Origin: Candidatus Faecalibacterium intestinigallinarum
GTDB taxonomy: Bacteria; Bacillota; Clostridia; Oscillospirales; Ruminococcaceae
NCBI GenBank assembly: GCA_019113345.1
Contig: DXHQ01000059.1
Location: forward strand, 1-42,209
Direction of reading: 5' to 3'
DNA length: 42,209 nt
Part shown: in pieces, positions 7,168-35,569 of the stretch
How positions within the stretch are numbered: the first letter of the stretch is position 1
Layout: every line of letters begins with the position of its first letter
Program-made: the position numbers and the translations under genes
Notes under the pieces: generated by a model
What the model saw: only the letters and a program-made list of their open reading frames with translations
Databases searched by the model: none
What the model was told of the DNA's origin: nothing

Positions 7168-7355
7168 TTAGGGGGAACCCATTTCTGCCTGCTGCGCAGG
7201 ACAGAAATCCTTTCCCCCTAATATCCCCCTTTTAGACAAAATTTGGCGCAGAACCGCGCACTCGCCCTCACGGGCTCGCACACTCTCTGCGCCAAATTTC
7301 CCTGTATGTGTCCCGACCGTACGCACATGTCGTCCGGTCGGGACGTTTTGTTTTT
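7168..7355 (+). repeat. Structured repeat element, copy A (three hairpins, ends in terminator)
   Basis: Stem I: TTAGGGGG (7168-7175) with CCCCCTAA (7214-7221), enclosing a second palindrome (ATTTCTG...CAGAAAT and CCTGCTGCGCAGG). Stem II: 14-bp arms AAATTTGGCGCAGA (7239-7252) and TCTGCGCCAAATTT (7286-7299), enclosing GCCC-TCAC-GGGC. Stem III: GTCCCGACCG (7310-7319) and CGGTCGGGAC (7335-7344), followed by TTTTGTTTTT. The loop of stem III contains ACATGT in all copies. Copies B and C have the same order with compensating changes in the arms. No protein is encoded. It lies directly downstream of the deacetylase gene, in its orientation. Confidence 0.85.
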
Positions 7356-7356
7356 A
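7310..7356 (+). terminator. Intrinsic terminator forming stem III of repeat copy A
   Basis: A perfect 10-bp stem GTCCCGACCG/CGGTCGGGAC with a 15-nt loop and a T-rich tract (TTTTGTTTTT). It would end transcripts of the deacetylase gene. The convergent permease gene stops inside the T-tract. Confidence 0.85.
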
Positions 7357-8505
7357 TACTAGATACGTCAGGATAGACCAGAGGCCGAGCAATACGGCCA
7401 GAAAGGCCAGGTTCGCGAGGGTGAACAGCTTGAAATACTCCCCCTTGCGCGCCGGTTCCTCCCGGGCGATCTGCCGGTAGGAGATCAGGCTGGCCATCGA
7501 GGCGATCAGGGTGCCGAGGCCGCCGAGGTTGGTGCCGATGATGAGGGCCCGAACGTCCTGGGTGAAGCCGGAGAGCAGCAGCGCCGCCGGGACGTTGCTG
7601 GTCACCTGACTGGCCAGGACCGCCACCAGCACCTCCCGCCCGGCGATGACCTGCCGCAGCCAGTCCGAGAAGGCGGGCACCCGCCCCAGGTTGCCGATGA
7701 AGATAAAGAAGGCCACAAAGGTCAAAAGCAGCGAGTAATCCACCCGGGCAAGGGCGGCACGGTCAGCCAGGAGATGGGCCGCCAGCACCGCCGCAAAGGC
7801 CGCGCCATAGGGCAGCACCCGCACCACCGCCAGCAGGCAGACAATGAAGAGGGCCGCGTCCATCCCGATGATCCGCCGGTCGGGGTGCTCCCCCTCCCGC
7901 GGGGCCAGGAACGGCCCGCCCGCCCCCTTGCGGATGGGGCTGCCGCCCCGGCAGAGCCAGACCGCCCACCCCGCCAGCAGGGCCAGCGCGGCCAGAGTGT
8001 AGGGCAGCATCAGGGCCAGAAAGGCCCCCATCCCCATCCCGCTGCGGCCGTAGAGGTAGAGGTTCTGCGGGTTGCCGATGGGTGTCAGCATACTGCCGAG
8101 GTTGGCCGCGACGGTCTGCATACAGACCACCGGCAGGGCCAGCTTTTCCCGCGTTTCGGCCCCGAGGCTGTCCAGCACCACAAAGGTGAAGGGGACAAAG
8201 GTCAGCAGAGCCACGTCGTTGGTGATGAACATACTGCCGAAAAAGCACAGCCCCACAAGCACCAGCACCAGCTGCAAGGCGCTGCCGGTCAGGGCCAGCA
8301 GGGCCCGGCCCATCCGGTCAAAGACCCCCTGCCGGCGCAGCCCGGCCATCACCGTCATCAGGGAAAAGAGGATGGCCAGGGTGCGCAGGTCAATGTAGCC
8401 GAGATATTTCCCGTCCGGGGGGACGGCAAACGCCGAAACCACCGCCAGGACGGCCGCCGCCGAGAGGACGGCCTCCTGTTTGACAAATTGGACAAGTTGT
8501 TTCAT
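7354..8505 (-). CDS. SLC13/ArsB-type anion permease (citrate transporter-like family)
   Basis: 383 residues, strongly hydrophobic with about 10-11 membrane segments. The pattern of the ion transporter superfamily is visible: MFITNDVALLTFVPF in the first half, then NLGSMLTPIGNPQNLYLY, and in the second half SQVTSNVPAALLLSGF followed by IGTNLGGLGTLIASMASL. These duplicated T-N-D/S-N-V-P plus G-N/T-N-L-G elements are the substrate and ion sites of SLC13/ArsB-like carriers. The substrate (dicarboxylate, arsenite or another anion) cannot be told, and no arsR or arsA is nearby. The start is uncertain: the ATG at 8505 has only a weak GGTGGGA site, and an upstream in-frame start at 8544 is possible. 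Confidence 0.8.
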   Translation of the reverse strand: MKQLVQFVKQEAVLSAAAVLAVVSAFAVPPDGKYLGYIDLRTLAILFSLMTVMAGLRRQGVFDRMGRALLALTGSALQLVLVLVGLCFFGSMFITNDVALLTFVPFTFVVLDSLGAETREKLALPVVCMQTVAANLGSMLTPIGNPQNLYLYGRSGMGMGAFLALMLPYTLAALALLAGWAVWLCRGGSPIRKGAGGPFLAPREGEHPDRRIIGMDAALFIVCLLAVVRVLPYGAAFAAVLAAHLLADRAALARVDYSLLLTFVAFFIFIGNLGRVPAFSDWLRQVIAGREVLVAVLASQVTSNVPAALLLSGFTQDVRALIIGTNLGGLGTLIASMASLISYRQIAREEPARKGEYFKLFTLANLAFLAVLLGLWSILTYLV

Positions 8506-8520
8506 GATTCCCACCCACAA

Positions 8521-8553
8521 AGGGGAGCGGCGCTTGGCGCGCACCGCTCCCCT
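8521..8553 (-). terminator. Hairpin between the aminopeptidase and permease genes (weak terminator)
   Basis: The perfect 10-bp arms AGGGGAGCGG (8521-8530) and CCGCTCCCCT (8544-8553) are followed on the minus strand by only three T. It may attenuate rather than stop transcription into the permease gene. Confidence 0.5.
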
Positions 8554-8565
8554 GTTCCGTTCGGT

Positions 8566-9969
8566 TTACTGTTTTGCCGCGATAAAGGTGCTGAAAGCGC
8601 GATAGGCCATGTACAGGTCGTTCTTGCTGACCACCTCAAAGGGCGAGTGCATGGACAGCACCGGCACCCCGATGTCCACCACGGCGATGCCGCTGTGGGC
8701 CACCTCGGTGGCCACCGTGCCGCCGCCGCCCAGGTCGACGCGGCCCAGCTCGCCGATCTGCCAGGCCACACCGGCCTCGTCCATCATCCGGGTCAGATAG
8801 CCCATCTGCTCGGCCGAAGCGTCGTTGGCGCCGCTCTTGCCGCGGCTGCCGGTGTACTTGAAGAAGGCCACGCCCCGGCCGGCGTAGGTGCCGTTCTGGG
8901 GCTCAAAGGCGCTGGCCCAGGTGGGGTCGTAGGCGGCGGTCACGTCGGCCGACAGGCACAGGCTTGCCCGGAACGCGCGGATCTCGTCCGCGCCCTGCAT
9001 CCGGCAGAGCTGGCGCAGCCAGTCAAAGGTGTAGGTGCTGCCCATGCCGGTGATGCCGTAGCTGCCGATCTCCTCCTTGTCCGCCAGGACGCAGACGGTG
9101 GTGAAGGCGGGGTCCTTGACCTCGATCTCGGCCATGAGGGCGGCGTAGGCGTCCACGCGGTCGTCCTGGCCGTAGCCGCCCACCATCGAGCGGTCAAAGC
9201 CGATGTCCCGGGCGGGGGTGGCGGGGACAATCTCCAGCTCGGCGCGGGTGAAGTCCTTCTCGGTGATGCCGTACTTCTCGTTGAGCAGGATCATGGTCTG
9301 GAGCTTGACCTTCTCCTTGATCTCCTCGTCCTCCACTGCATCGGAGCCGATCAGGATGTTCAGCTCCTCGCCCTTGATGCCGTCGGACAGCTCCCGCTTG
9401 TTCTGCTCGGCGCTCAGGTGGGGCAGCAGGTCGGTGATGCAGAAGGCGGGATCGCCCGCGTCCTCGCCCACCTGGACGGTGACGGTGCTGCCGTCGGCAC
9501 GGGTAAAGACGCCGTGGATAGCCAGGGGCATGGTGGCCCACTGGTACTTGCGGATGCCGCCGTAGTAGTGGGTCTTGAGCAGGCTGAAATGGGCCGCCTC
9601 ATACAGGGGGTTGGGACGGATGTCCAGCCGGGGCGCATCGATGTGGGCGATGACCAGGTGGAAGCCGTCCTCCATCGAGCGGGTGCCGATGGTGCCGCAG
9701 AGCACCGCCTTGCCCTCGTGGATCCAGTAGACCTTCTCGCCGGGGGCGTACTGCTTGCGGTCGTCGTACAGCTGGTAGCCGGCGGCCTTCAGGGCCTCTT
9801 CGGCGTAGGCAGCCACCTCCCGCTCGGTCTTGCAGCGGGTCAAAAAGCTCTTGTAGCCCTCGCCGAACGCAGCGGCGGCCTGCCGGGTGGCGGCGTCCTT
9901 GTCGCTGGCGTAAGCGGGCTCATACAGCAGGGCCTTGGCCTTCTGCTGTGCTTCGGTCATTTCTTTCAT
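8566..9969 (-). CDS. M18-family aminopeptidase
   Basis: 467 residues, the usual length of bacterial M18 (aspartyl aminopeptidase-like) metallopeptidases. Metal-ligand and catalytic regions are visible: AHIDAPRLDI (about residue 109), GGYGQDDRVDAYAAL, LADKEEIGSYG and near the C-terminus SMHSPFEVVSKND. These enzymes are cytosolic dodecamers that remove N-terminal residues, preferring acidic or other residues depending on the subfamily. AAAGGGATAGG lies upstream of the ATG. It sits between a lytic transglycosylase gene and the permease gene on the same strand, with no clear promoter of its own. Confidence 0.92.
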   Translation of the reverse strand: MKEMTEAQQKAKALLYEPAYASDKDAATRQAAAAFGEGYKSFLTRCKTEREVAAYAEEALKAAGYQLYDDRKQYAPGEKVYWIHEGKAVLCGTIGTRSMEDGFHLVIAHIDAPRLDIRPNPLYEAAHFSLLKTHYYGGIRKYQWATMPLAIHGVFTRADGSTVTVQVGEDAGDPAFCITDLLPHLSAEQNKRELSDGIKGEELNILIGSDAVEDEEIKEKVKLQTMILLNEKYGITEKDFTRAELEIVPATPARDIGFDRSMVGGYGQDDRVDAYAALMAEIEVKDPAFTTVCVLADKEEIGSYGITGMGSTYTFDWLRQLCRMQGADEIRAFRASLCLSADVTAAYDPTWASAFEPQNGTYAGRGVAFFKYTGSRGKSGANDASAEQMGYLTRMMDEAGVAWQIGELGRVDLGGGGTVATEVAHSGIAVVDIGVPVLSMHSPFEVVSKNDLYMAYRAFSTFIAAKQ

Positions 9970-9999
9970 GTTTACCTATCCCTTTCTTGACGTTCCGGA

Positions 10000-10036
10000 G
10001 CCCCGCGCCGTTTTTCCCTGCGCGGGGCCCGTTTTT
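10000..10036 (+). terminator. GC-rich hairpin with a T-run on the plus strand
   Basis: The arms GCCCCGCGC (10000-10008) and GCGCGGGGC (10020-10028) are followed on the plus strand by CCGTTTTTATAT. Both neighbouring genes are on the minus strand, where the hairpin has no T-tract, so it may block antisense transcription or be a processing or stability hairpin. The function is unclear. Confidence 0.4.
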
Positions 10037-10601
10037 ATATACTGGGGCCGTACAGCTCCGTATAGCGCTTGTAACAGCGGAGGATCTTCTCCACATAGTG
10101 GTTCATCCGGCTGTAGGGGAAGGACGGCAGGGTCTTGCCGTCGCCGGTGTAGTCCTCGTGGTTCAGCAGGCTGTCCACCGTGCCCCAGCCGCTGTGATAG
10201 GCGGCCGCGGCGGTGGCCACGTCTCCGCCGTACCGGTCCAGGCAGAGCCGCAGGTAATACGCGCCGAACCGCACCGCGCAGGCCGGATCGAACAGGTCGT
10301 CAAAGGTCAGCGGCTCGTCGGGGGCAATCTTCGATTTGATCCACTCGAAGGTCTCCTCGGTCATCTGCATCAGGCCGCGGGCCCCCACGCTGGAGACTGC
10401 CTCGGGGTCAAAGCCGCTCTCGGTCCGCACAAAGGTATAGATCAGCAGCGGATCCATCTCATACTCCGCCGCGTAGCTTTCGATCACGCCGTCGTACCGG
10501 CAGGGGTAGAGCTGCCGCCCGATCCCGCGCAGCGCGGCGGGCATACAGGCGGCCAGCACCGCCGCCAGCAGCAGGGAGCAAAGTTTCGTATACAGTTTCA
10601 A
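10035..10601 (-). CDS. Lytic transglycosylase (SLT domain), secreted
   Basis: 188 residues. The N-terminal hydrophobic segment (residues about 5-24, LCSLLLAAVLAACM) is a signal peptide or anchor, possibly a lipobox (LAAC). The SLT/goose-lysozyme-like domain spans about 45-185: the catalytic Glu in FVRTESGFDP, then VSSVGARGLMQMT, and AYHSGWGTVDSLL (the usual AYNAG..V motif, with S for A/N) and YVEKILRCYKRY. It cleaves peptidoglycan glycan strands to 1,6-anhydro ends. The ATG overlaps the stop of coaE by 4 bp, so translation is coupled in the DUF951-prfA-sua5-coaE operon, as is seen in other Clostridia. Confidence 0.9.
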   Translation of the reverse strand: MKLYTKLCSLLLAAVLAACMPAALRGIGRQLYPCRYDGVIESYAAEYEMDPLLIYTFVRTESGFDPEAVSSVGARGLMQMTEETFEWIKSKIAPDEPLTFDDLFDPACAVRFGAYYLRLCLDRYGGDVATAAAAYHSGWGTVDSLLNHEDYTGDGKTLPSFPYSRMNHYVEKILRCYKRYTELYGPSI

Positions 10602-11221
10602 ACCGTCGCGCCGGGCCCCCTTTCCGCCTCGGCCAGCAGGCTGTCGGCCAGAGCTTCGGCCTTTTGGCGCAGCTGTTCGATGGCGCCGTCGTTTTTCAGC
10701 AGGATGTCGGCCCGGGCGGCCAGAGCCTCCTCGGGCAGCTGGGCGTCCAGCCGGCGGCGGGCCATCTCGGGACGGATGCCGTCCCGCGCCACGATCCGGG
10801 CGACGCTGACCTCATAGGGCGCGGCGACCACCACCAGGGTGTCCCAGATGCCGTCGATGACGCTGCCCACCAGCACCGCCCCGTCGATGACAAAGAGGGG
10901 GCTGCCGGCTCTGCGGGCCGCCTCGCGGGCGGCTTCGATCCGCCGCACGATGGCCGGGTGGGTGATGGCGTCGAGGGTGGCCTTGCCCTCGGGGGTGGCA
11001 AAGGCTCGGTCGGCCAGTCCCCGCCGGTCGAGGGTCCCGTCCTCCCGCAGAATATCCGGCCCGAAGCGCCCGGCCAGCTCGGCCAGCACCGGGGAGCCGG
11101 GCTGCAAGATCTCGCGGGAGATCCGGTCGGCGTCGGCCACCGGCACCCCGCGGGCGGCAAAAACTTCGGTCACCGTCGATTTGCCGCAGCCGCTGCGGCC
11201 GGTGATGCCTATCGTCCTCAT
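10598..11221 (-). CDS. coaE: Dephospho-CoA kinase
   Basis: 207 residues, the standard length. The P-loop GRSGCGKST is at residues about 8-16; the CoaE features VADADRISREIL, a LID-type segment and the FVIDGAVLVGS strand follow. It phosphorylates the 3'-hydroxyl of dephospho-CoA, the last step of CoA synthesis. ATP-binding and DxD-type residues are intact. It overlaps sua5 upstream and the transglycosylase gene downstream by 4 bp each, so it is within one polycistron. Confidence 0.95.
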   Translation of the reverse strand: MRTIGITGRSGCGKSTVTEVFAARGVPVADADRISREILQPGSPVLAELAGRFGPDILREDGTLDRRGLADRAFATPEGKATLDAITHPAIVRRIEAAREAARRAGSPLFVIDGAVLVGSVIDGIWDTLVVVAAPYEVSVARIVARDGIRPEMARRRLDAQLPEEALAARADILLKNDGAIEQLRQKAEALADSLLAEAERGPGATV

Positions 11222-12252
11222 AGCGTCACCACCCGGAAGGCCGCGGCCCGCACCAGGCGGTTGTAGACCGCCATCGAAACGCCGTCCCGCCGGGGGCAGC
11301 GGGCGTAGACCACCCGGTCCCCCTGTTCGTCCAGCGCGCGCAGGCAGCGGAAGATGTGCTGCGCCTGACCGGCGCCGTCCCCCTCCCGGCCGTACTCGAC
11401 GCAGGCAAAGCCCATCGCCTCCAGCTCGGCCGCCTCGCCGGTAAAGCAGAGGCAGGCGGGGTTCTGTCCGGCATGAGCCTTCAGATAGGCTTTGTACTGC
11501 TCAAAGGTCCCGTCCAGAATGGTGATGTCGGCCTTGGGGGCGTAGTGTTTATACTTCATGCCGGGGCTGCGGGCCACCTCGCCCTCGGCCAGCTTTTCCA
11601 GAATGGCCGGGGAGAGCTCGACCTCCTCCCCGAGGGCCCGTTCAAGGTCCTCAAGGGTGATCCGCCCGGGGCGGAAGAGGGTGGGCTTTTCCCCCACCAC
11701 CGACACGACGGTCGACTCCACTCCCACATCGCAGGGCCCGCCGTCCAGGATCAGGGGCAGGCGGCCCTGCATATCGGTCCAGACGTCCTGGGCGGTGGTG
11801 GGGCTGGGCTTGCCCGAAAGGTTGGCCGAAGGGGCCGCAAAGGCGCAGCCGCTGGCCTCGATCACCTGCCGGACCACCGGGTGGCTGGGCATCCGGATGC
11901 CCACCGTGTCCAGACCGGCGCAGCATTCGTCGGCCACCTCGGGGCCTCGGGGCATGATGATGGTCAGCGGCCCGGGCCAGAAGGCCGCGGCCAGCAGCTG
12001 GGCCCGCTCGGGGTACTCACTGACAAGGCCGGGCAGCATCTTCACGTCGTCGATGTGGACGATGAGGGGGTTATCCTGAGGGCGGCCCTTGGCCGCAAAG
12101 ATTTTTTTCACCGCGCTGCCGTTGCGGGCGTCGGCGGCAATGCCGTAGACCGTCTCGGTGGGCAGGGCGATGATCTCTCCCTGCCGCAGCAGGGCGGCGG
12201 CGCGGGCGACGCCCGCCTGGTCCGCCGGGCAGAGAAGGGTTTCGATGCTCAT
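11218..12252 (-). CDS. ywlC: L-threonylcarbamoyladenylate synthase (Sua5 type)
   Basis: 344 residues: an N-terminal YrdC-like domain (about 1-200) plus the C-terminal Sua5 extension that distinguishes it from short TsaC. Typical signatures are GEIIALPTETVYGIAADA, KGRPQDNPLIVHI, the basic patch around WPGPLTIIMPR and CAFAAPSANLSGKPSPT. It makes threonylcarbamoyl-AMP from threonine, bicarbonate and ATP for the universal tRNA t6A37 modification. It follows prfA by 22 bp and overlaps coaE. Confidence 0.95.
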   Translation of the reverse strand: MSIETLLCPADQAGVARAAALLRQGEIIALPTETVYGIAADARNGSAVKKIFAAKGRPQDNPLIVHIDDVKMLPGLVSEYPERAQLLAAAFWPGPLTIIMPRGPEVADECCAGLDTVGIRMPSHPVVRQVIEASGCAFAAPSANLSGKPSPTTAQDVWTDMQGRLPLILDGGPCDVGVESTVVSVVGEKPTLFRPGRITLEDLERALGEEVELSPAILEKLAEGEVARSPGMKYKHYAPKADITILDGTFEQYKAYLKAHAGQNPACLCFTGEAAELEAMGFACVEYGREGDGAGQAQHIFRCLRALDEQGDRVVYARCPRRDGVSMAVYNRLVRAAAFRVVTL

Positions 12253-12274
12253 GATTTGCGTACGCTTTCTATCG

Positions 12275-13363
12275 TTATGATTGCAGTTTGCTCAGCTTTT
12301 CGGCCTGTTCGTGCAGGATCAGAGCGTCCAGCACCTCGTCGAGGTTGCCGTCCATGATCTTGTCGAGATTGTGGACGGTCAGGCCGATGCGGTGGTCGGT
12401 GCAGCGGTCCTGCGGGAAGTTGTAGGTGCGGATCTTTTCGCTGCGGTCCCCGCTGCCTACCTGGGCCTGACGGCCGGCGTTGATGGCGCTCTGCTGCTCG
12501 CTCTGTTTCTGGGCCAGCAGGCGGCTGCGCAGGATCTCGAGGGCTTTGTCCTTGTTCTGGAACTGGCTGCGCTCGTTCTGGCACTCCACCACCATGCCGG
12601 TGGGCAGGTGGGTGATGCGGATGGCGCTGGATGTCTTATTGATATGCTGGCCGCCCGCGCCGGATGAACGGAAGGTGTCGATCCGCAGGTCCTTCATGTC
12701 CAGCTCGACCTCCACCTCCTCGGCCTGGGGCAGCACGGCCACCGTGGCCGTCGAGGTGTGGATGCGGCCCTGGGTCTCGGTGTCGGGCACCCGCTGCACC
12801 CGGTGGACCCCGCTCTCAAACTTGAGGCGGCTGTAGGCCCCCTGGCCGTTGACGGCAAAGACGGCCTCCCGCACCCCGCCCAGCTCGGTCTCGCTCAGGT
12901 TGAGCAGCTCCATCTGCCAGCGATGGGCGGCGGCGTACATGCTGTACATCCGCACCAGACTGTGGGCAAAGAGGGCGGCCTCCTCGCCGCCCACCCCGCT
13001 GCGCACCTCGACGATGACGCTGCGGCCGTCGTATTCGTCCCTGGGCAGCAGCAGCATTTTGAGCGATTGTTCCAGCTGCGCCACCGATTGCGTTTTTTCG
13101 CAGATCTCCTGCTGTATCATTTGTTTGAAGTCCGGCTCGAGGGCCTCGTCCCCGGCGAGCAGGGCTTTTGCCTGTGCCAGGTGGTCCCGCTCGGTCCGCA
13201 GGGCCCGGTAGGCCGTCACGGCCGGCTCGGCCTCGTGGTATTCCTGCATCAGGCGGCGGAAAGCGGCCGGGTCGGCGGCCGTTTCGGGCTGGTTCAGCCG
13301 GTGGGCCAGCTCTTCAAACCGGCGGCTGACCGCCTCCATCTGTTGATCCAAAGACAGCGGCAA
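12275..13363 (-). CDS. prfA: Peptide chain release factor 1
   Basis: 362 residues, full length for RF1. The GAGGQHINKT motif that drives peptidyl-tRNA hydrolysis is present. The stop-codon-reading tripeptide in RVQRVPDTETQGRIHTS is P-D-T, fitting the PxT pattern of RF1 (UAA/UAG) rather than the SPF of RF2. The start is TTG at 13363: an AAAGGAG site sits six bases upstream, while the first ATG, eight codons later, has none. It lies 47 bp after the DUF951 gene. There is no prmC in the neighbourhood. Confidence 0.96.
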   Translation of the reverse strand: MPLSLDQQMEAVSRRFEELAHRLNQPETAADPAAFRRLMQEYHEAEPAVTAYRALRTERDHLAQAKALLAGDEALEPDFKQMIQQEICEKTQSVAQLEQSLKMLLLPRDEYDGRSVIVEVRSGVGGEEAALFAHSLVRMYSMYAAAHRWQMELLNLSETELGGVREAVFAVNGQGAYSRLKFESGVHRVQRVPDTETQGRIHTSTATVAVLPQAEEVEVELDMKDLRIDTFRSSGAGGQHINKTSSAIRITHLPTGMVVECQNERSQFQNKDKALEILRSRLLAQKQSEQQSAINAGRQAQVGSGDRSEKIRTYNFPQDRCTDHRIGLTVHNLDKIMDGNLDEVLDALILHEQAEKLSKLQS

Positions 13364-13410
13364 GGGGCGCTCCTTTCTGCATCGGGTGTCCGGCGTGCCA
13401 GAAAAGGCCG

Positions 13411-13611
13411 CTAGGGCTTGCCGCTCTGGCCGTCCGGCCTGATCACTTTTTTGATGTTCTTTTCGATCTTGACACGGGGCAGCATGACTTCCCGCCCGCA
13501 GCCTGTGCAGCGGATGCGGAAATCCATCCCCACCCGCAGCACTTCAAAGCTCGAAGCGCCGCAGGGGTGCTTTTTCCTGGTCTGAATGATGTCTCCGACA
13601 GCGATATCCAT
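13411..13611 (-). CDS. DUF951 family protein
   Basis: 66 residues with an AAAGGAG site seven bases from the ATG. It matches the DUF951 pattern: VGDIIQTRKKHPCGASSFEVLRVG at the N-terminus, then RIRCTGCGREVMLPRVK and a basic C-terminus ending in Lys/Arg-rich residues. The HPCG and CTGCG pairs suggest a zinc-ribbon-like fold. The family is widespread in Bacillota and of unknown function, often near ychF or translation genes. Here it leads the prfA operon, just behind a good sigma-A promoter. Confidence 0.88.
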   Translation of the reverse strand: MDIAVGDIIQTRKKHPCGASSFEVLRVGMDFRIRCTGCGREVMLPRVKIEKNIKKVIRPDGQSGKP

Positions 13612-13659
13612 CGACAGGCTCCTTTCCCGTTTTCGGCGGCTTTTGTGGCCGCAACCCAT

Positions 13660-13688
13660 AGTATAGTCTAAACCTTGGCAAATTGCAA
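13660..13688 (-). promoter_or_regulatory. Sigma-A promoter of the DUF951-prfA operon
   Basis: On the minus strand TTGCAA (13688-13683), 17-bp spacer, TATACT (13665-13660). It lies in the divergent intergenic region shared with the S1-domain gene, about 50 bp before the DUF951 start. Confidence 0.78.
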
Positions 13689-13791
13689 GGAATAGAACTA
13701 GCACACAAAAATTTTGCATATGCTGGTAGCGGGGCCGGACAAAGGCCCCTGCCGCCATCATGCAATCAAAGCCAAGAAAGAGGAATGAAAG

Positions 13792-14752: not shown

Positions 14753-14808
14753 TGTAATAACCAACGCGGCGGGGCGTCCCCCGCCCGAGCGCAAAAGGAT
14801 GTGAAGAT

Positions 14809-15360: not shown

Positions 15361-15362
15361 AA

Positions 15363-28333: not shown

Positions 28334-28870
28334 TTACCGCCGCTCCTTTGCCTTGCGGGCCTCTTCCCTGCCCTCTTCGGTGTCCTCGTAGAAATATTCG
28401 CTGGACTGCATGATGGTGATGCCGTCCAGATGGTCGTTCTCATGCTGGATGCAGCGGGCCAGCAGCCCCTCGGCCTCCAGCTCAAACCACGCGCCGGTGC
28501 GGTCCTGCGCGCGGACCTTGACCGCCGCCGGCCGAGTCACCGCGCCGTTGTGCCCCGGGAAGGACAGGCACCCCTCGTAGTGGGTCTCCTCTTCCTCCGA
28601 CACGGCCAGGATCTCGGGGTTGACAAAGTCGATGAACTTATACTCATACCCCTCGGGGATCTCCTCGGGGGCGTCGGTGGTGTCCCACACCACAAACAGG
28701 CGGCGCAGCATCCCCACCTGCGGGCCGGCCAGACCCACGCCGTCGGCCTGGATCATGGTCTCGCGCATATCGTCCAGCAGGGTAGCCAGACGGTCGTCAA
28801 ATTTGGTCACGGGACGGCAGACCTTGTTCAGAATAGGGTCGCCCTCCTTGACAATGTTGCGGATAGCCAT
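28334..28870 (-). CDS. def: Peptide deformylase
   Basis: 178 residues. Three metal-site motifs are present: GVGLAGPQVG (Ala to Gly variant of GxGLAAxQ), EGCLSFPG with the Cys ligand, and IQHENDHLDG with the two His ligands and catalytic Glu. It removes the formyl group from nascent proteins. AAAGGAG lies seven bases upstream of the ATG. The C-terminal tail is Lys/Arg/Glu-rich. Confidence 0.96.
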   Translation of the reverse strand: MAIRNIVKEGDPILNKVCRPVTKFDDRLATLLDDMRETMIQADGVGLAGPQVGMLRRLFVVWDTTDAPEEIPEGYEYKFIDFVNPEILAVSEEEETHYEGCLSFPGHNGAVTRPAAVKVRAQDRTGAWFELEAEGLLARCIQHENDHLDGITIMQSSEYFYEDTEEGREEARKAKERR

Positions 28871-28894
28871 AGCGTTTCTCCTTTTGTCTCTATG

Positions 28895-31159
28895 CTAGAT
28901 GTCTCCGTCCGAGTGCATGTCTACAGCGACGGACGCTTTGGCGGGCAGCTTTTCCTCCTCGTAGAGGCCCAGCACCTCCCGCAGCAGAGCGCGGAACTGT
29001 TTGTCGTTGCGGCACTTGACGGTGAGCTTGTAGCGGTATACTTCGTTGATCATCAGGATGCTGCCCGGCGTCGGGCCCAGCACCCGCAGGGGGATGTCGG
29101 GGCGTTTGGCGGCCTGCTGACCCAGCAGGGCGGCAAAGCGGGCCGCCGCCGCGGCCACCTCCCCTTCCTTTTTGCCCGCAAAGCTGACGATGCACAGACT
29201 GCAGAAGGGCGGATAGAGCCCCAGCTTGCGGTATTCGATCTCCTGCGCGAAAAAGGCGTCGTAGTCCTGGGCGGCGGCCAGGCTGAGGACGGGGTTGTCG
29301 GGGTCGGTGGTCTGGATGATGGCCTGCCCCGGGCACGACGCCCGGCCGCTGCGGCCCACCACCTGGGTCACCAGGCTGAACACCGTCTCATAGGCGCGGA
29401 AGCCCTGGGCAAACAGCAGCGAGTCGATGCCCAGCACCCCGACGAGGGTGACATCCTCAAAGTCGAGGCCCTTGGCCACCATCTGGGTGCCCACCATGAT
29501 GTCGTACTCATGGCGGGCAAAGCCGGCCAGCAGCTTTTCGTGGGCGTCCTTGGCGGCGGTGGTGTCCTGGTCCATCCGCAGAATGCGGGCCTCGGGAAAG
29601 AGGGCGGCCAGTTCTTCCTCCGCCTTCTGGGTGCCGAAGCCCCGGTAGTGCAGCTTGCCGCCGCAGGCCGGGCAGACGGCGGGCCGGGGCGCGATCTGAG
29701 TGCCGCAGTAGTGGCAGAGCAGCCGCCCGCCCCCGGCCTTGTGGTAGACCATCGGGACGCTGCACTTGGGGCACTTGAGCACCTCGCGGCAGTCCTCGCA
29801 CTGGGCCATGGTCTGGTAGCCGCGCCGGTTGAGCAGCAGGATGGCCTGCCGGCCGGCGGCGAGATGCTCTCGCAGCGCGTCCTCCAATGCAAGGCTGATC
29901 TCCCGCGGGTTGCCGGCAGCCAGCTCGGCCCGCATATCCACCATCTGCACCGCCGGCAGCGGCTGCCCGGCGTACCGCTGGGTCAGCCGGACCAGCTGAT
30001 ACCGCCCGGCCTGCGCCTCGTAAAAACTCTCGGTGCTGGGGGTGGCGCTGGCCAGCAGCAGCAGCGCGCCGTTTTTGGCCGCCCGCCACCGGGCCACCTC
30101 CTGCGCGGCATAGCGGGGCGCCGATTCGGAGCGGTAAGTGTGCTCCTGCTCCTCGTCGATGACGATGAGGCCGAGCCCTTCCAGCGGGGCAAAGACGGCG
30201 CTGCGGGTCCCCACCACAATGTCGGCCCCGCCGTCCTGGATCATCTGCCACTGCAGCAGCCGTTCGGTGTGGTTGAGGGCCGAGTGCTGGACCGCCACCC
30301 GCCGGCCGAACCGCTCCTTCAGCCGGCGAATCATCTGCGGCGTCAGGCTGATCTCGGGCACCAGGACCAGCGCCTTTCTGCCCAGGGCCAGGCACCGCTC
30401 GATCAGCTTGAGAAAGACCAGGGTCTTGCCGCTGCCGGTGACGCCGTAGAGCAGCGCCGTATGGGCCTGCCCCGTCTCGAGGTGGGGGGCCAGGGCGTCG
30501 AAGGCGGCCTGCTGCTCGGCGGTCAGGGTCAGCTCCTCGTTTTTCTGGGGGATGTGGGCGTAGAGGTCGATGGATTTGTTCACCCGCTCGGCCGCCAGCA
30601 CCCCCTTGGCGCAGAGGTTTTCGGCCACCGCCCGGCTGATGCCGTGGGCCTCGAGGTCGCCCTGGGTGCGGGGCCCGCCCGAGAGCAGGGCCACCGCCGC
30701 CAGCTGCTTGGCGGTGGGCTTGGGTTTTGCGGGCAGCGGAGCGGCCAGCCGGTAGAGGGTCTCGGTGTGGCGGGTCAGCTGCTTTTGCAGCACCGGGGTC
30801 ACACCGTCGGCGGCCAAAGCCGGCTTGTACTGCGCCCCATAGGGAATGACCGCCTTGACCGCCTCGTACCAGGTGCAGAAGGTGCGGGCCTTCAAAAAGC
30901 GGACCAGTTCCAGCAGCTCGCCGGTCAGGCAGGCCGAGGCCGGCGCCACGTCAAAGATGGCCTTGAGTTTGGCGCTCTCGGGCTCGGCGTCGCAGGCCAG
31001 CACCACCCCCATCCGGGGGCGGCTGCCCCGCCCAAAGGGGACCAGCACCATACTGCCCAGCCGCACCTGATCCTGCTGATCCGGCATGACCGCGTAGGTG
31101 TACAGCTTGTCGAAATGGAAGGCCGCATGGCTGACCGCCACCCCCACCGTCCTGGGCAT
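28895..31159 (-). CDS. priA: Primosomal replication restart helicase PriA
   Basis: 754 residues. N-terminal 3'-DNA-binding domain, then a superfamily 2 helicase core: Walker A GVTGSGKT (about residue 240), the Walker B box IDEEQEHTY (DEEQ), and motifs V-VI around VGTQMVAKGLDFEDVTLVG and QVVGRSGRA. A zinc module with four CxxC pairs interrupts the core (CEDCREVLKCPKCS ... CHYCGTQ ... CPACGG). It reloads the replisome at stalled forks. It begins one base after the gmk stop; no rpoZ or coaBC lies between, unlike Bacillus. Confidence 0.97.
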   Translation of the reverse strand: MPRTVGVAVSHAAFHFDKLYTYAVMPDQQDQVRLGSMVLVPFGRGSRPRMGVVLACDAEPESAKLKAIFDVAPASACLTGELLELVRFLKARTFCTWYEAVKAVIPYGAQYKPALAADGVTPVLQKQLTRHTETLYRLAAPLPAKPKPTAKQLAAVALLSGGPRTQGDLEAHGISRAVAENLCAKGVLAAERVNKSIDLYAHIPQKNEELTLTAEQQAAFDALAPHLETGQAHTALLYGVTGSGKTLVFLKLIERCLALGRKALVLVPEISLTPQMIRRLKERFGRRVAVQHSALNHTERLLQWQMIQDGGADIVVGTRSAVFAPLEGLGLIVIDEEQEHTYRSESAPRYAAQEVARWRAAKNGALLLLASATPSTESFYEAQAGRYQLVRLTQRYAGQPLPAVQMVDMRAELAAGNPREISLALEDALREHLAAGRQAILLLNRRGYQTMAQCEDCREVLKCPKCSVPMVYHKAGGGRLLCHYCGTQIAPRPAVCPACGGKLHYRGFGTQKAEEELAALFPEARILRMDQDTTAAKDAHEKLLAGFARHEYDIMVGTQMVAKGLDFEDVTLVGVLGIDSLLFAQGFRAYETVFSLVTQVVGRSGRASCPGQAIIQTTDPDNPVLSLAAAQDYDAFFAQEIEYRKLGLYPPFCSLCIVSFAGKKEGEVAAAAARFAALLGQQAAKRPDIPLRVLGPTPGSILMINEVYRYKLTVKCRNDKQFRALLREVLGLYEEEKLPAKASVAVDMHSDGDI

Positions 31160-31160
31160 C

Positions 31161-31733
31161 TTACTGCTCCAGGCCGGCCCGCCGCACCATCAGGGCGTAC
31201 AGGTCGCCGGCGGCCTGCTCGATGCTGTTGTTGACGATCCGCACGTCGAACGCGTCGGCCTGGGCCAGCTCTTCCCGGGCGATGGCCAGCCGGCGCTCGA
31301 TGCTCGCCTCGTCGTCGGTGCCGCGGCCCCGCAGCCGGGCTTCCAGCTCCTGGGCCGAGGGCGGCAGCAGGAACACGATGGTCGACCCCGGATAGAGCCG
31401 CTTGATGTTGGCCGCCCCGTGGACGTCGATGTTGAGCAGCACCAGCTTGCCGGCCGCCATCCGGCGCTCCACCTCGGCGCGGAGGGTGCCGTAGTAGTTC
31501 CCGTTATAATAGTTGTATTCCAGCACCTCGCCCGCCTCGATCAGCTGTTTGAAGGCTGCCTCGCTGCGGTAGTAGTAGTTGACCCCTTCGGCCTCCCCTT
31601 CCCGGGGGGCGCGGGTGGTGGCCGAGACCGTCTTTTCGATCTCGGGGTGGTCGGCCCGCAGACGGGCCATCACGGTATCCTTGCCGACGCCCGAAGGACC
31701 CGACACCACAAACAGGTATTTTTCGCCTTCCAT
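31161..31733 (-). CDS. gmk: Guanylate kinase
   Basis: 190 residues. P-loop GPSGVGKDT (about 11-19), the GMP-binding stretch STTRAPREGEAEGVNYYYRS and LNIDVHGAANIKRLYPGS. It converts GMP and ATP to GDP and ADP. It follows the remA-like gene with no gap and precedes priA by one base, indicating tight co-expression. Confidence 0.97.
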   Translation of the reverse strand: MEGEKYLFVVSGPSGVGKDTVMARLRADHPEIEKTVSATTRAPREGEAEGVNYYYRSEAAFKQLIEAGEVLEYNYYNGNYYGTLRAEVERRMAAGKLVLLNIDVHGAANIKRLYPGSTIVFLLPPSAQELEARLRGRGTDDEASIERRLAIAREELAQADAFDVRIVNNSIEQAAGDLYALMVRRAGLEQ

Positions 31734-32000
31734 TCAAACTTCCTCCTCTGCCGCTTTGGGGTCCGGCCCGCCGCCTGCGCGGCCCGCCACCGTCTCGGGC
31801 TGCAGGGCCGACAGGATCACATGGTCCGAATCCATGATGAGGACCGCCCGGGTGCTGCGCCCGTAGGACGCGTCGATCAGCCGGCCCTGCTCCCGGGCCT
31901 CCTTGATGATCCGCTTGATGGGGGCCGAGTCGGGGCTGACCACCGCGACCAGCCGCCCGGCGCTGACCATATTGCCGAAACCAATGTTGATAAGCTTCAT
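31734..32000 (-). CDS. remA: DUF370/RemA-family regulatory protein
   Basis: 88 residues. [32 protein letters not shown] and [20 protein letters not shown] match the RemA/DUF370 family, whose Bacillus member is a ring-forming DNA-binding regulator of matrix genes. The C-terminus adds about 15 variable acidic residues. The place between yicC and gmk is conserved in Bacillota. The matrix role is not assured in this organism. Confidence 0.92.
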
Positions 32001-32004
32001 GCCC

Positions 32005-32883
32005 TTACTCCAGGTTCTGGATCTGCTCGCGGATCTTTTCGATCTCCGCCTTCATGTCCACGACGATCCGGGTGATGTCGAGGTCCTGGCACTTGGAACC
32101 GATGGTGTTGGCCTCGCGGTTGAGCTCCTGGGTCAAAAAGTCCAGCTTGCGGCCCACCGGCTGGCCGCTGCCCAAAATTTCGCGGTACTGCGCGATGTGG
32201 CTGCGCAGCCGGACCGTCTCCTCATCCACCGCGGTCTTGTCGCCGAAGATGGCGGCCTCGGTCAGCACCCGGGCGTCGTCGATGGCGCGGTCCTCCAGGA
32301 TCACCTTGAGCCGCTCGTAGAGGCGCTGGGTGTATTTTTCCACCCGCCCGGCGGTCAGCTCCTCGATCCGGCCGACGCAGCTTTCCACCGTGTCCAGCCG
32401 GCCGGTGATATCCTCCAGCATCTTTTCGCCCTCGATGCCCCGCATCTCGACAAAGTTCTGCACGGCCTGTGCCGCCACGTCCGAGACGTCGGCCCAGAGC
32501 TGTTCCTCGTCCACTTCGGCCTGCCGGGTGGTCAGCACGTCGGGGAAGCGGGCCAGCAAGCCCGCCGTCACGTCGTTTTTGACCCCCAGCGCCTCGGACA
32601 TATCCCGCAGCGCCTGCTGATAGCCGCGGGCCAGGTCCATATCCACCGCCACCTCGGTCCCGGCAGCTTCGAGGTCCTGCACCGTCAAACTGACTTCCAC
32701 CTTGCCGCGGGCGATGCGGCTGTTCAGCAGGGCCTTGAGCCTGCTGTCCAGAAAGGCGCAGCTGCGGGGGATGCGGGAGGTATACTCGAAATACCGCGCG
32801 TTGACGCTGCGCAGCTCGACCGTGATCTCCCGGCCGCCGCGCACCGCGCTGGCGCGGCCGTACCCAGTCATGCTATAGATCAT
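32005..32883 (-). CDS. yicC: YicC-family endoribonuclease
   Basis: 292 residues from the ATG at 32883, starting [12 protein letters not shown] as is typical for YicC; an in-frame ATG eight codons upstream is less likely. The N-terminal YicC domain (about 1-155) and C-terminal DUF1732 domain (about 205-292, ending in [37 protein letters not shown]) are both complete. Relatives are RNases with a role in small-RNA decay and stationary phase. It is the first gene of the long housekeeping operon, behind a sigma-A promoter with a palindrome at the start site. Confidence 0.93.
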
Positions 32884-32973
32884 ATGCTTTCTCTCTTCCC
32901 TTTTCATTCTTGGCCGATCTTTTTTCGCGCATATATATCCTTTCGGGGTCTAGTGCCCCATCTTACGATACAT

Positions 32974-32983
32974 ATGGTACCAT
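32974..32983. promoter_or_regulatory. 10-bp palindrome at the predicted start of the yicC operon
   Basis: ATGGTACCAT is a perfect palindrome covering the last -10 bases and the predicted transcription start near 32975. A repressor bound there would block the promoter. No regulator is identified. Confidence 0.35.
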
Positions 32984-33010
32984 TTTACTATTCCAGGGCC
33001 TTTTTTGCAA
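32982..33010 (-). promoter_or_regulatory. Sigma-A promoter of the yicC-remA-gmk-priA operon
   Basis: On the minus strand TTGCAA (33010-33005), 17-bp spacer, TAAAAT (32987-32982). It lies just downstream of the terminator that ends repeat copy B. The 380-bp stretch between yicC and the upstream small gene holds this promoter, copy B and one further hairpin, and no protein gene that I can support. Confidence 0.65.
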
Positions 33011-33020
33011 GCATAGCCGT

Positions 33021-33224
33021 CAAAAAAGTCCCGTCCGGCCGACATGTACGGACGGACGGGACACATCCAGGGAAATTTGGCGCAGAGAGTGTGCGAAGCC
33101 CGCCAGGGCGAGTGCGCGGTTCTGCGCCAAATTTTGTCCAAAGGGAGAATCCAGGGGGGAAGGTTTTCTGACCTGCGCAGCAGGCAGAAAAGGGTCCCCC
33201 CTGGAGCGTGTCGCCAGACACGCT
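33021..33224 (-). repeat. Structured repeat element, copy B (four hairpins, ends in terminator)
   Basis: In minus-strand order: a 5' hairpin AGCGTGTC/GACACGCT (33224-33217, 33212-33205); stem I CCAGGGGGG/CCCCCCTGG (33204-33196, 33159-33151) enclosing TTTTCTGCCTG...CAGAAAA; stem II AAATTTGGCGCAGA/TCTGCGCCAAATTT (33134-33121, 33086-33073); stem III GTCCCGTCCG/CGGACGGGAC (33062-33053, 33037-33028) followed by TTTTTT. Between stems II and III it has CCCTGGATGTGT, conserved in all copies. Copy A has A/T pairs where copy B has C/G in stem I. Confidence 0.87.
33028..33062 (-). terminator. Intrinsic terminator forming stem III of repeat copy B
   Basis: A perfect 10-bp stem GTCCCGTCCG/CGGACGGGAC with an ACATGT-containing loop, followed on the minus strand by six T. 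It ends the oadA operon and separates it from the yicC promoter. Confidence 0.85.
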
Positions 33225-33259
33225 AAACCGCCGGGCAGGTTTCGCAGCCTGCCCGGCGG
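33225..33259 (-). terminator. Hairpin after the 72-residue protein gene
   Basis: A perfect 12-bp stem CCGCCGGGCAGG/CCTGCCCGGCGG (33259-33248, 33239-33228) is followed on the minus strand by only TTTA. It is probably a first, weak terminator or an RNA stability hairpin ahead of repeat copy B. Confidence 0.6.
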
Positions 33260-33262
33260 GGT

Positions 33263-33481
33263 TCAGTATTCCTTTGTGACGTTCTCGACGCCGTATTCCT
33301 CCTGGAAGCGCGCCAGGTCCCGGTCGCTGCGGATCAGCATGACCTCTTCAAAGCGGCCGGTGGCCGTCTCCTTAAAGCCGGCGGCCATCTCGCCGGTGCA
33401 GATGCTGCACCGGATGACCGGTTTCCAGCGGGCGGGGTCGTAGCGTTTTTTCTCCCGCTCCTTCTTTTTGGCAAACAGCAT
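33263..33481 (-). CDS. Small conserved protein of unknown function, companion of oadA
   Basis: 72 residues from the ATG at 33481 (GGGAGG upstream). A very basic N-terminus (FAKKKEREKKRYDP) is followed by a compact part with RCSICTGEMAAGFK, ATGRFEEVMLIRSDRDLARFQEEYG. One CxxC pair is present. I associate similar small proteins with Clostridia genomes but know of no tested function. It follows oadA by 22 bp on the same strand and is closed by a hairpin, so it is part of the transcarboxylase operon. Confidence 0.75.
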   Translation of the reverse strand: MLFAKKKEREKKRYDPARWKPVIRCSICTGEMAAGFKETATGRFEEVMLIRSDRDLARFQEEYGVENVTKEY

Positions 33482-33503
33482 GGCGGCTCCCTCCCTTTCA
33501 GGC

Positions 33504-34907
33504 TCAGACAGGGTGAGACTTGTTCTGATAGTCGGCGTGGTCGGCATCGACGCCCTGCATCTTGGCGTTGCGCTTTTCAAAGAATTTGGGCGCGACCTGC
33601 GGGAACATGGCGTAGGTCAGAGCGTCCTCCTCCTGGATGGACCACTTGGCGGCTTCGGCCTTGAGCTTGTCCATCTCGGGCTCGAGGGTGTCGGCAAAGC
33701 GGCAGGTGATGGGCTGCTCGTCGCCCAGGATCTTTTTGGTGAACTCGGGCTTGATGGGCGCGGGGGTCTTGCCGTAATCGCCGTGGACCAGGCCCTTGAA
33801 CTCCTTGGTGACCATCTTGTACCGCTCGCCCAGAATGACGTTGAAGACAGCCTGGGTGCCCACGATCTGGCTGGTGGGGGTGACCAGCGGCGGATAGCCG
33901 GCGTCCTCGCGGACACGGGGGATCTCGGCCAGCACCTCGTCCAGCTTGTCCTCCTTGCCGGCGTCCTTCAGCTGCTTGAGCATATTGGAGAACATGCCGC
34001 CCGGCACCTGGTAGAGCAGGGTGTTGGCGTCGACGCCCAGGCTCTTGGGGCTGATCTGGCCGTTGGCGATATACTTTTCACGCAGCTTGGCGAAATAGGC
34101 GCGGACCACGTTCAGCTGGCCGAGGTCGAGGCCGGTGTCGTAGTCGGTGCCGCGCAGCGCCGCCACCAGGCTCTCGGTGGGCATATGGCTGGTGCCGAGA
34201 GCCAGGGGGCTCATGGCGGTGTCGACGATGTCGGCGCCCGCCTCGATGCCCTTGAGGATGGACATGGAAGCCAGGCCGGCGGTGTAGTGGCTGTGGATAT
34301 CCACCGGGATCTTGACGGCGGCCTTCAGCTCCTTGACCAGCTCATAGCAGGTGTAGGGGGTCAGCAGGCCGGCCATATCCTTGATACAGATGGAGTCGGC
34401 GCCCATCTCTTCGAGGGTTTTGGCGTAGGCGGCGAAAGCCTCGTTGGTGTGCACCGGGCTGAGGGTGTAGCTGATGCAGCCCTGGACGTGGGCCCCCTCC
34501 TTGTTGGCCGCCTTGATGGCGGTCTGGAGGTTGCGGGGGTCGTTCAGCGCGTCAAAGATGCGGATGACGTCGATGCCGTTGGCCACCGACTTCTGGACGA
34601 AATACTCGACCGCGTCGTCGGCATAGGGGCGGTAGCCCAGCATATTCTGGCCGCGGAACAGCATCTGCAGCTTCTGGTGGGGCAGTTCTTTGCGCAGGAT
34701 GCGCAGCCGCTCCCACGGGTCCTCGTCCAGGAAGCGGATGCAGCTGTCGAAGGTCGCGCCGCCCCAGCATTCCACCGAGAAATAGTTGATCTTATCCATT
34801 TCGGGCAGGATGGGACGCATCTCATCCATGGTCATCCGGGTGGCCAGCAGGGACTGATGGGCGTCGCGCAGGACCACTTCGGTGACCTTGATCGGCTTTT
34901 TGGCCAT
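33504..34907 (-). CDS. Pyruvate/oxaloacetate carboxyltransferase subunit (OadA/5S-like)
   Basis: 467 residues from the ATG at 34907; an in-frame GTG three codons upstream abuts the AGGGAGGG site and is unlikely. The HMGL-like TIM barrel starts RDAHQSLLATRM; CIKDMAGLL carries the Lys that is carbamylated in the family and DIHSHYTAG supplies metal-binding His residues. A conserved carboxylase domain follows (about 300-450). It lacks a C-terminal biotin domain, so it needs the separate carrier encoded just upstream. It would move carboxyl between biotin and pyruvate/oxaloacetate. The 5S subunit of propionibacterial transcarboxylase has the same plan, as do short OadA proteins. Confidence 0.9.
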   Translation of the reverse strand: MAKKPIKVTEVVLRDAHQSLLATRMTMDEMRPILPEMDKINYFSVECWGGATFDSCIRFLDEDPWERLRILRKELPHQKLQMLFRGQNMLGYRPYADDAVEYFVQKSVANGIDVIRIFDALNDPRNLQTAIKAANKEGAHVQGCISYTLSPVHTNEAFAAYAKTLEEMGADSICIKDMAGLLTPYTCYELVKELKAAVKIPVDIHSHYTAGLASMSILKGIEAGADIVDTAMSPLALGTSHMPTESLVAALRGTDYDTGLDLGQLNVVRAYFAKLREKYIANGQISPKSLGVDANTLLYQVPGGMFSNMLKQLKDAGKEDKLDEVLAEIPRVREDAGYPPLVTPTSQIVGTQAVFNVILGERYKMVTKEFKGLVHGDYGKTPAPIKPEFTKKILGDEQPITCRFADTLEPEMDKLKAEAAKWSIQEEDALTYAMFPQVAPKFFEKRNAKMQGVDADHADYQNKSHPV

Positions 34908-34923
34908 AGTGTTCACCCTCCCT

Positions 34924-35325
34924 TTAGTTCAGCGTGACCAGGGTGTCGCCCGAGTTGACGACATCGCCCTTGTTCACCTCGATGGTGGCGACGGTGCCGT
35001 CCTGCGGGGCGACGATCTCGTTCTCCATCTTCATGGCTTCCAGGACGATCAGCGCGTCGCCGGCCTTGACCGTATCGCCGGGCTTGACCTTGACGTCCAG
35101 GATATTGCCGGGCATGGGAGCCTTGACCGAGACGGCGCCGGCTGCGCCCTTGGGGGCTGCGGGAGCGGCCGGGGCGGGGGCAGGCGCAGCGGCAGCCGGC
35201 GCGGGAGCGGCCGGTTTCGGTGCGGGTGCGGCGGGGGCGGCAGCCACAGGGGCGGCGCCGGCCGCGGTTTCCTCGACGCTGACGCTGTAAGCGACGCCGT
35301 TGACGGTAATGGTATAGTACTTCAT
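34924..35325 (-). CDS. Biotin carboxyl carrier protein (1.3S-like)
   Basis: 133 residues from the ATG at 35325 with an AGGAGGG site. It starts MKYYTITVNGVAYSVSVEE, resembling the 1.3S carrier of propionibacterial transcarboxylase and Na+-pump gamma/delta carriers. A long Ala/Pro linker (about 20-62) precedes the biotinyl domain (about 65-133) with the biotin-accepting Lys in EAMKMEN. It shuttles carboxyl-biotin between the two carboxyltransferase subunits. It lies directly between repeat copy C and oadA. Confidence 0.95.
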   Translation of the reverse strand: MKYYTITVNGVAYSVSVEETAAGAAPVAAAPAAPAPKPAAPAPAAAAPAPAPAAPAAPKGAAGAVSVKAPMPGNILDVKVKPGDTVKAGDALIVLEAMKMENEIVAPQDGTVATIEVNKGDVVNSGDTLVTLN

Positions 35326-35369
35326 GGATAAACCCTCCTGAAAAATCAGCTTATGCGGAGCCATTTCAA

Positions 35370-35569
35370 TTCCGTCCAATCGGAGGACATGTGCGTCCGA
35401 TTGGACACATCCAGGGAAATTGACCGGCGAGAGTGTGCGGGCCGCCCTTGGCGGCGCGTGCGCGGTCCGCCGGGAAATTTTGTCGGAAAGGGGGATACCA
35501 GGGGGAAAACATTTCTGTTCTGCGTATGCAGGCAGAAATGGGTCCCCCCTGGAGCGCGCCCCGCGCGCT
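35370..35569 (-). repeat. Structured repeat element, copy C (four hairpins, no T-tract)
   Basis: In minus-strand order: a 5' hairpin AGCGCGC/GCGCGCT (35569-35563, 35559-35553); stem I CCAGGGGG/CCCCCTGG (35552-35545, 35505-35498); stem II AAATTTCCCGGCGGA with TCGCCGGTCAATTT (35480-35466, 35430-35417; CCGGCG/CGCCGG replaces the GGCGCAGA/TCTGCGCC of A and B); stem III GTCCAATCGG/CCGATTGGAC (35406-35397, 35383-35374). Every changed arm has a matching change in its partner. No T-run follows stem III, so transcripts from the upstream carboxyltransferase gene can continue into the carrier gene. Confidence 0.85.

Follow-up and report, generated by a model that had tools for sequence, protein, structure and literature searches.

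The contig DXHQ01000059.1 of Candidatus Faecalibacterium intestinigallinarum, 42,209 nucleotides long and analysed in full as the window, contains three copies (A, B and C) of a structured repeat that an earlier note had read as a candidate undescribed RNA element. The question raised by this locus is whether the repeat represents an RNA under selection or a piece of DNA that moves. The flanks of 14 copies, together with matched occupied and empty sites, speak for the latter. The three repeats very probably belong to a high-copy, non-autonomous mobile DNA element of certain Faecalibacterium species, reminiscent of a miniature inverted-repeat transposable element, which has no gene of its own, measures about 217 bp and inserts at stem-loops, most of which resemble transcription terminators.

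Host hairpins at occupied and empty sites

Read 5′ to 3′, the element consists of a left hairpin (AGCGTG..CACGCT), stems I, II and III, often a U-run, and the sequence GACAGTCTG. Copies from the window's own genome (64) and from other genomes (84) were pooled into a set of 148, from which edge-cut rows and repeats of a locus were excluded. Orthologous copies from different genomes were counted apart in the flank comparison, the U-run counts and the 112-copy alignment described below, so the rows are not all independent. For the 134 copies with enough flank on both sides the 5′ flank was locally aligned with the 3′ flank; 14 score 18 or more, where 1590 mismatched flank pairs peak at 17. A first test restricted to own copies gave four of 54 at 18 or above, with a control maximum of 12. 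In the 28 of the 148 copies that carry a further module (see below) the upstream window holds this module and not host DNA, and duplications around them would therefore be missed. Copies directly behind stop codons show, by eye, no convincing target duplication.

The duplicated stretch is the stem-loop just 5′ of the element. It measures 18 to 43 bp and its size tracks the hairpin; it is therefore not of fixed length. On our own reading, in eight of the 14 duplications neither end is more than 3 nt from the outermost pair of a stem-loop that folds well, four comprise the hairpin plus 6–10 nt at one end, and two (C24 and C60) fold weakly and contain the 3′ part of the host hairpin only. The two flanking copies are identical at L095 (26 bp), L154 (25 bp) and L131 (18 bp), and the longest duplication is found at L137 (42–43 bp). 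Between the duplicated hairpins lies a unit of 216–220 bp in nine cases and of 201–225 bp in all 14, extending from about AGCGTGTCG to GACAGTCTG. Where the left hairpin is intact, a strong stem-loop has its 3′ foot 0–6 nt away in 35 of 55 copies, compared with 13 of 54 control windows.

Orthologous sites show the states before and after. Around the carboxylase gene that lies between copies B and C, 28 loci were compared. The B site of G008 is empty, with a single terminator hairpin, that of G004 shows the arrangement hairpin–element–hairpin, and in the genome of the window a hairpin precedes the element with no second one behind it. In the window this host terminator stem-loop is found 5′ of copy B at 33228..33260 (−), and it is the same stem-loop that stands single in G008 and flanks the element on both sides in G004. 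When the B-site copies of G000 and G004 are compared, 16 of 74 unpaired positions disagree, so these copies may be separate insertions or have been overwritten. The C-site spacer is covered by 25 of the 28 loci: 22 have 39–83 nt without an element, G000 has a full copy, and the spacers of G004 (152 nt) and G016 (126 nt) look like remnants. An122 carries a near-identical copy between coding flanks that are only 81–86% identical.

A second site (L137) gives the same picture: in G004 the element is flanked on either side by a 43-bp hairpin, and G000, G016 and G021 have a single hairpin, the flanking gene being 86–91% identical. Thirteen of the 20 loci of this site were viewed; besides the four named, one stops at a contig end and eight have other downstream DNA. 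For a third site (L095) no usable empty counterpart was found. Finally, the own copy C40 stands, by eye, where L133 has its native terminator, which suggests that the terminator may have been replaced there.

Anatomy and distribution of the repeat

The places and strands given for the three window copies in the earlier note are correct; the cores found by cmsearch span 7168–7350 (+), 33022–33204 (−) and 35368–35552 (−). Each lies behind a gene on its own strand, as had been claimed, the core starting 3 (A), 58 (B) and 19 (C) nt past the stop codon. Copy A (7168..7355, +) comprises stems I–III and a U-rich tract, and lacks the left hairpin. Stem I with its inner hairpin (TTAGGGGG..CCCCCTAA; 7168..7221, +) corresponds to helices 1 and 2 of fold and alignment, stem II (AAATTTGGCGCAGA..TCTGCGCCAAATTT; 7239..7299, +) to helices 3–5, and stem III, a terminator-like hairpin with ACATGT in its loop region (7310..7344, +), to helix 6; the U-rich tract GTTTTGTTTTT follows at 7345..7355 (+). 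The gene whose stop codon copy A follows encodes a polysaccharide deacetylase (Polysacc_deac_1; 6187..7164, +). A tRNA-Leu (gag) gene lies at 6096–6178 (−) of the window.

The fourth hairpin, 5′ of stem I, is present in copy B and as a variant in copy C. In copy B this left hairpin (hairpin 0, AGCGTGTCTGGCGACACGCT; 33205..33224, −) leads into the core of stems I–III and U-run (33022..33204, −), and the likely right end GACGGCTATG (33012..33021, −) is read, from the right ends of other copies, as a degenerate GACAGTCTG. The upstream gene is small (33263..33481, −), within a longer open reading frame (33263–33580) that has no Pfam match. Copy C has the variant left hairpin AGCGCGCGGGGCGCGCT (35553..35569, −) and a core of stems I–III (35368..35552, −) with the 3′ end GGACGGAATTGAAA and no U-run; it sits between a carboxyltransferase gene (35572..36945, −) and a biotin-carrier gene on the same strand. 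Copies A and B fold far better than dinucleotide shuffles (z −10.95 and −8.85, respectively; none of 200 shuffles as good for either).

Both ends of the element recur beyond the window. The own genome has 24 occurrences of the left hairpin pattern, 21 of them beside a listed copy and the other three near contig ends. One of these three is followed by stem I of a copy truncated at the contig end, and another by an insertion sequence (IS) within a copy; all 23 left hairpins examined lead into the repeat. In 68 of 138 copies a palindrome of at least 6 bp ends 0–2 nt 5′ of stem I. The left hairpin varies in sequence with its pairing kept (window 35553–35569; L058 just before 1501), and in one copy (GCCTGTAAACAGGC) it takes in the stop codon of the host gene. 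The right end TTTTTGACNGTCTG, after the U-run, has seven exact matches in the own genome, all beside listed copies, and five one-mismatch matches away from copies; the 3′ end of other copies resembles GGACGGATTTGAAA. The ends of the element are like AGCGTGTC .. GACAGTCTG, with candidate terminal inverted repeats (cAGcgTGTC and CAGacTGTC) that match at seven of nine positions and are degenerate in many of the 14 duplication-flanked copies. None of the 64 own copies shares more than 40 nt with a gene call of at least 40 amino acids; the calls were made with a home-made codon-usage finder that also provided the neighbouring genes below. Larger forms exist: the motif GGTTGCGG..CGCAGTCCC of a further structured module of about 135 nt, placed between stems I and II, is present in 28 of the 148 copies (nine of the 64 own copies and 19 of the 84 from other genomes; e.g. 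L158, L160, L161, L074, L125 and L129), and the L195 copy in G001 has, by eye, nested modules.

The three copies first described are all real, and the draft genome holds many more. The covariance model that the earlier note had called for was built from 29 copies and applied to this genome and its relatives; it gives 117 matches in the own genome, 64 of them above 70 bits, and blastn with copy B gives 47 matched pieces. Matches at or below 70 bits, mostly opposite-strand mirrors of stem I and short pieces, were set aside. The number 64 counts copies, some cut short by contig ends, and is not a ceiling since only 150 of the 1191 first-look candidates went into scoring. Under stricter filters the repeat is found by the model in 11 of 31 genomes of the genus (taken to be Faecalibacterium) and in none of 30 outside it (61 genomes in all). 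An exact pattern matches at least 91 stretches in a collection of species genomes, and among the matches listed all but one are labelled Faecalibacterium. The exception, L079, is a copy-bearing 3.3-kb contig labelled Pullilachnospira stercoravium that shares 82% identity over 236 nt with a Faecalibacterium locus and is for that reason probably mis-binned. A link with chickens is suggested by carrier names such as gallistercoris, faecigallinarum and Chicken_9. Searches of viral contigs (one exact pattern) and of plasmids and phages (blastn with copy B) gave no match.

High copy number, hairpins and an extragenic position are also features of REP/REPIN-type elements moved by RAYT, a Y1 tyrosine transposase, and REP, BIME and REPIN elements have such a transposase as partner. 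No Y1_Tnp match was found in the own draft genome by a search that was positive in five of 14 control genomes, and hairpin-sized duplications are, to our knowledge, not part of the RAYT mechanism. This origin is therefore considered highly improbable.

Covarying stems and the position at gene ends

The matched stem changes noted among copies A, B and C are real, and covariation persists as copies are added. In an alignment of 112 copies from 100 sources, fitted to the covariance model, 97.7% of 5970 cells pair and 38 of 54 pairs change on both sides. The covariation score is 0.322, compared with 0.102 (standard deviation 0.003) in shuffles and at most 0.049 in slid structures, and each of five measures exceeds all 500 shuffles. 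A MAFFT alignment of 29 copies likewise has 97.6% of 1562 cells paired and 23 of 54 pairs changing on both sides, with a score of 0.265 (shuffles 0.102, standard deviation 0.006; slid partners at most 0.049). One of the five measures, the number of further pair types (38), is in this 29-copy alignment not above that of shuffles (37.3), 222 of 500 of which reach it. The stretch GACAAAATTT, previously described as single-stranded, is so only in part: its AAATT forms the base of stem II and is paired in the 112-copy alignment, the first four pairs in all 112 copies and the fifth in 111. ATGTG and CACAT were inspected by eye for a pseudoknot, which was dropped as the variants did not seem to covary.

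Structured RNAs usually contain several per cent of G-U pairs; here only 38 of 5833 paired cells are G-U. With G-U pairs so scarce, causes acting on DNA, namely a DNA hairpin, correction between inverted repeats or exchange between copies, may explain the covariation at least as well, and the covarying stems lose the force that the earlier note gave them as a sign of selected RNA. Near-perfect inverted-repeat stems fit selection on RNA alone less well.

No Rfam family was matched by the repeat in the sequences scanned. At gathering scores the window contains only a tRNA, and at E ≤ 1 nothing in the stretch of copies B and C matches. At E ≤ 1 across six loci, two tRNAs and a near-threshold T-box were found, all away from the copies, and matches that overlap a copy were far below gathering, the best being BTnc231 (E 0.005, 31.4 bits against a gathering score of 80.4). 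An extended copy matched only sX11, again far below gathering. The T-box leader (L009:1187-1441, −; 85 bits against a gathering score of 93) adjoins a copy on the other strand.

Placement relative to genes is strongly polar. In the own genome the 5′ gene is on the strand of the copy in 51 of the 58 cases with a visible neighbour, and the 3′ neighbour is on the same strand in 30 and on the opposite strand in 31. One of the seven exceptions, L015, has two tRNA-Ser genes directly upstream on the strand of the copy. Among all 148 copies the 5′ gene is on the same strand in 100 and on the opposite strand in 25, with no visible neighbour in 23; within 130 nt the ratio is 80 to 8. If TTTT at the 3′ end is taken as a crude criterion, 120 of 148 copies have a U-run, and the G+C-rich hairpin followed by the U-run has the form of an intrinsic terminator, from which termination is predicted. 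Of the 34 copies with a same-strand gene no more than 120 nt downstream, 13 lack the U-run, as do seven of 29 with one further off, five of 80 with an opposite-strand downstream gene, and three of five without a visible gene, two of the latter three being truncated by contig ends. The more frequent absence before close same-strand genes than before opposite-strand ones (Fisher p 6e-5) would fit termination at the ends of units and read-through inside operons. The 3′-end placement and the U-run point to a probable role in transcripts.

These properties could also be expected of a selected 3′-untranslated-region RNA, acting in termination, stability or processing, that was spread by recombination or gene conversion with no transposition. 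Strong covariation, the 3′-end position and polarity, and the tie between U-run and downstream gene would suit it, as would the greater conservation of the element in three of eight orthologous pairs with both flanks matched (L007/L143, L108/L152 and window C/L151), where it is clearly more conserved than the flanks. In the other five pairs the element has diverged about as much as the flanks or more, and some of these have broken pairs. Stem-loop duplications with matching unit ends, empty orthologous sites, a patchy presence in the genus and the near lack of G-U pairs all stand against such an RNA, which is considered unlikely. Of the options offered in the earlier note (3′-UTR element, small RNA or mobile element) the last is thus the best supported, through the flanking duplications and empty orthologous sites, and the other two less so.

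Insertion behind terminators raises one further candidate. Group IIC introns are found downstream of terminator stem-loops and oriented with transcription, and a relative without an open reading frame could occupy similar places. No group II intron match was obtained in the window at gathering scores or in the stretch of copies B and C at E ≤ 1, and we know of no long target duplications expected of these introns; such an origin is scarcely credible.

The candidate enzyme, the proposed pathway and known systems

Elements of the IS1182 family are reported to target hairpins, many of which are terminators (PMC4923244, PMC3098183). For IS1272 the sections consulted report replacement of the stem-loop with no duplication (PMC4923244, PMC5678879), and of the three pathways drawn by the authors in 2017 one, with joining at the 5′ feet, would lead to duplication of the entire stem-loop (PMC5678879). 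The IS1272-like outcome, a stem-loop removed and not duplicated, is not what is seen in the 14 copies that have the stem-loop on both sides.

A mechanism can be proposed in which a transposase, perhaps of IS1182 type, reads the extruded hairpin of the target. The ends of the element would be joined at the 5′ feet of this hairpin and repair would double the whole stem-loop; at the remaining copies the native terminator may have been replaced, or one copy of the hairpin later lost. Insertion would be tolerated because the element supplies a terminator, and selection would favour the right direction. Copies in operons, often without a U-run, would leave the downstream genes still read. The stems would be kept near-perfect because the DNA hairpin, needed for mobility, and the RNA terminator both depend on them. 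We give an even chance to the central proposal, that a DNA fold and not a ruler sizes the target duplication, that the enzyme joins at the 5′ feet and doubles the terminator hairpin, and that the spare terminator, which has a U-run or not depending on whether transcription is to stop or continue, lets the element occupy dozens of gene ends cheaply.

IS1182 transposases above the family cut-off (NF033551) occur in six of the 31 genomes of the genus, five of them repeat carriers; the own genome has only a 24.8-bit IS1182 fragment. By eye, the IS1182 element L253, from the non-carrier G020, ends in GACAGTCTG and shares a 9-bp end match with the repeat, L266 is partly alike, and the ends of L248–L252 differ. 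Also by eye, the IS1182 copies L249 and L250 seem to lie inside the loops of hairpins, 5 bp of loop sequence (GCTTC and GTTTT) being duplicated. A possible link of the repeat to IS1182 is put at about even.

The same mobile element could be moved by an enzyme outside the IS1182 family, a reading that is compatible with the mobile element itself and denies only one step of the mechanism; its likelihood falls just short of even. CRISPR spacer insertion gives an outcome similar to the duplication of a whole repeat, and no IS1182 element with matching ends was found in the carriers. The L253 end match and the loop duplications at L249 and L250 argue the other way, as does the hairpin and terminator targeting documented, in the sections consulted, within the IS1182 family (PMC4923244, PMC3098183, PMC5678879).

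Several observations weigh against the account of an element inserted at and doubling terminator hairpins. Duplication above controls is absent from 120 of the 134 copies, window copies A, B and C included (copy C scored 13 in the own-copy test, on coding sequence distant from the junction). The hairpin-foot control is itself high (13 of 54), and the terminal inverted repeats are short and imperfect. The L131 target lacks a U-run on both sides; a target is thus not necessarily a terminator. Of the 25 copies whose upstream gene is on the opposite strand, 18 are antisense to the genes on both sides, so the polarity is strong and not strict. As described in those sections, IS1272 leaves no duplication, and the pathway here would therefore differ. 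Searches of carrier genomes with NF033551, the end motifs and the L253 transposase gave no IS1182 element with matching ends, relatives of the L253 transposase in carriers being at most 29% identical, and no autonomous partner sharing the ends of the repeat was found in the own draft genome.

One candidate for such a partner was rejected. In C73 a left hairpin is followed by a transposase gene that starts MPRKLVSDELWSQIEPLLPK (MPRKLVSDELW); the IS concerned, which we take to be IS5-like, is about 860 bp with ends GAGCACC..GGTGTTC. It lies at a TTA directly behind the left hairpin of the repeat in L308 near 1500 (G000:C73:3706 on) and in L311 near 1500 (G014), and since it is found elsewhere at unrelated TTA/TAA sites it is read as having landed in a copy. 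Two side observations were made. A protein of about 185 amino acids, with a match to only the N-terminal part of IS1182-type transposases, is encoded in L256:1363-1914, L261:1366-1917, L257:1438-2001 and L260 (3′ part 1600-1947, reverse-complement coordinates), adjoined by the same downstream gene in L256, L260 and L261; it may be the DNA-binding domain of a transposase that has been domesticated. Another, distinct repeat, about CCTACTTTTCTGAAGAAAAGTAGGCAAAAGACTTTTCACTGGGTACC, is found right after the upstream genes at L288, L289, L290, L291 and L270 (G013, G014, G001 and G024).

Small extragenic repeats are common in bacteria, and the basis of their site choice is often obscure; in this case the sequences present the site (a stem-loop, mostly a terminator), the outcome (this stem-loop on both sides) and matched empty sites. 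A drawn structure-dependent pathway of transposition, not found documented in the literature consulted, becomes testable, and the repeat offers a model of an element that adds or replaces transcription stop signals genome-wide. Among the papers listed by full-text literature searches none describes the repeat in its title or in the beginning of its abstract, and the claim of novelty is limited to those searches. Known is the kind, a small non-autonomous mobile repeat; new are the structure-sized duplication and the paired terminator design.

Like the REP, BIME and REPIN elements it is a high-copy extragenic palindrome, differing in that its draft genome has no Y1_Tnp. The pneumococcal SPRITE, BOX and RUP are also small interspersed repeats, SPRITE being terminator-like and near gene 3′ ends; they are different repeats, for which duplication is not established (SPRITE) and no stem-loop-sized duplication is described in the sections consulted (PMC3049150). 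ISCbo5, an IS1182-family element of Clostridium botulinum group III, is inserted, with a single exception, in hairpins that lie at gene ends and are probably terminators; unlike the repeat it is a full IS with a transposase, and hairpin duplication is unmentioned in the sections consulted (PMC3098183). IS1272 and TnSha1, IS1182-family elements of staphylococci, likewise use hairpin targets that share no sequence, several of them terminators. As described in the same limited sections, they remove or replace the stem-loop without duplicating it, whereas the present element has no transposase gene and has its stem-loop duplicated in 14 copies (PMC4923244, PMC5678879).

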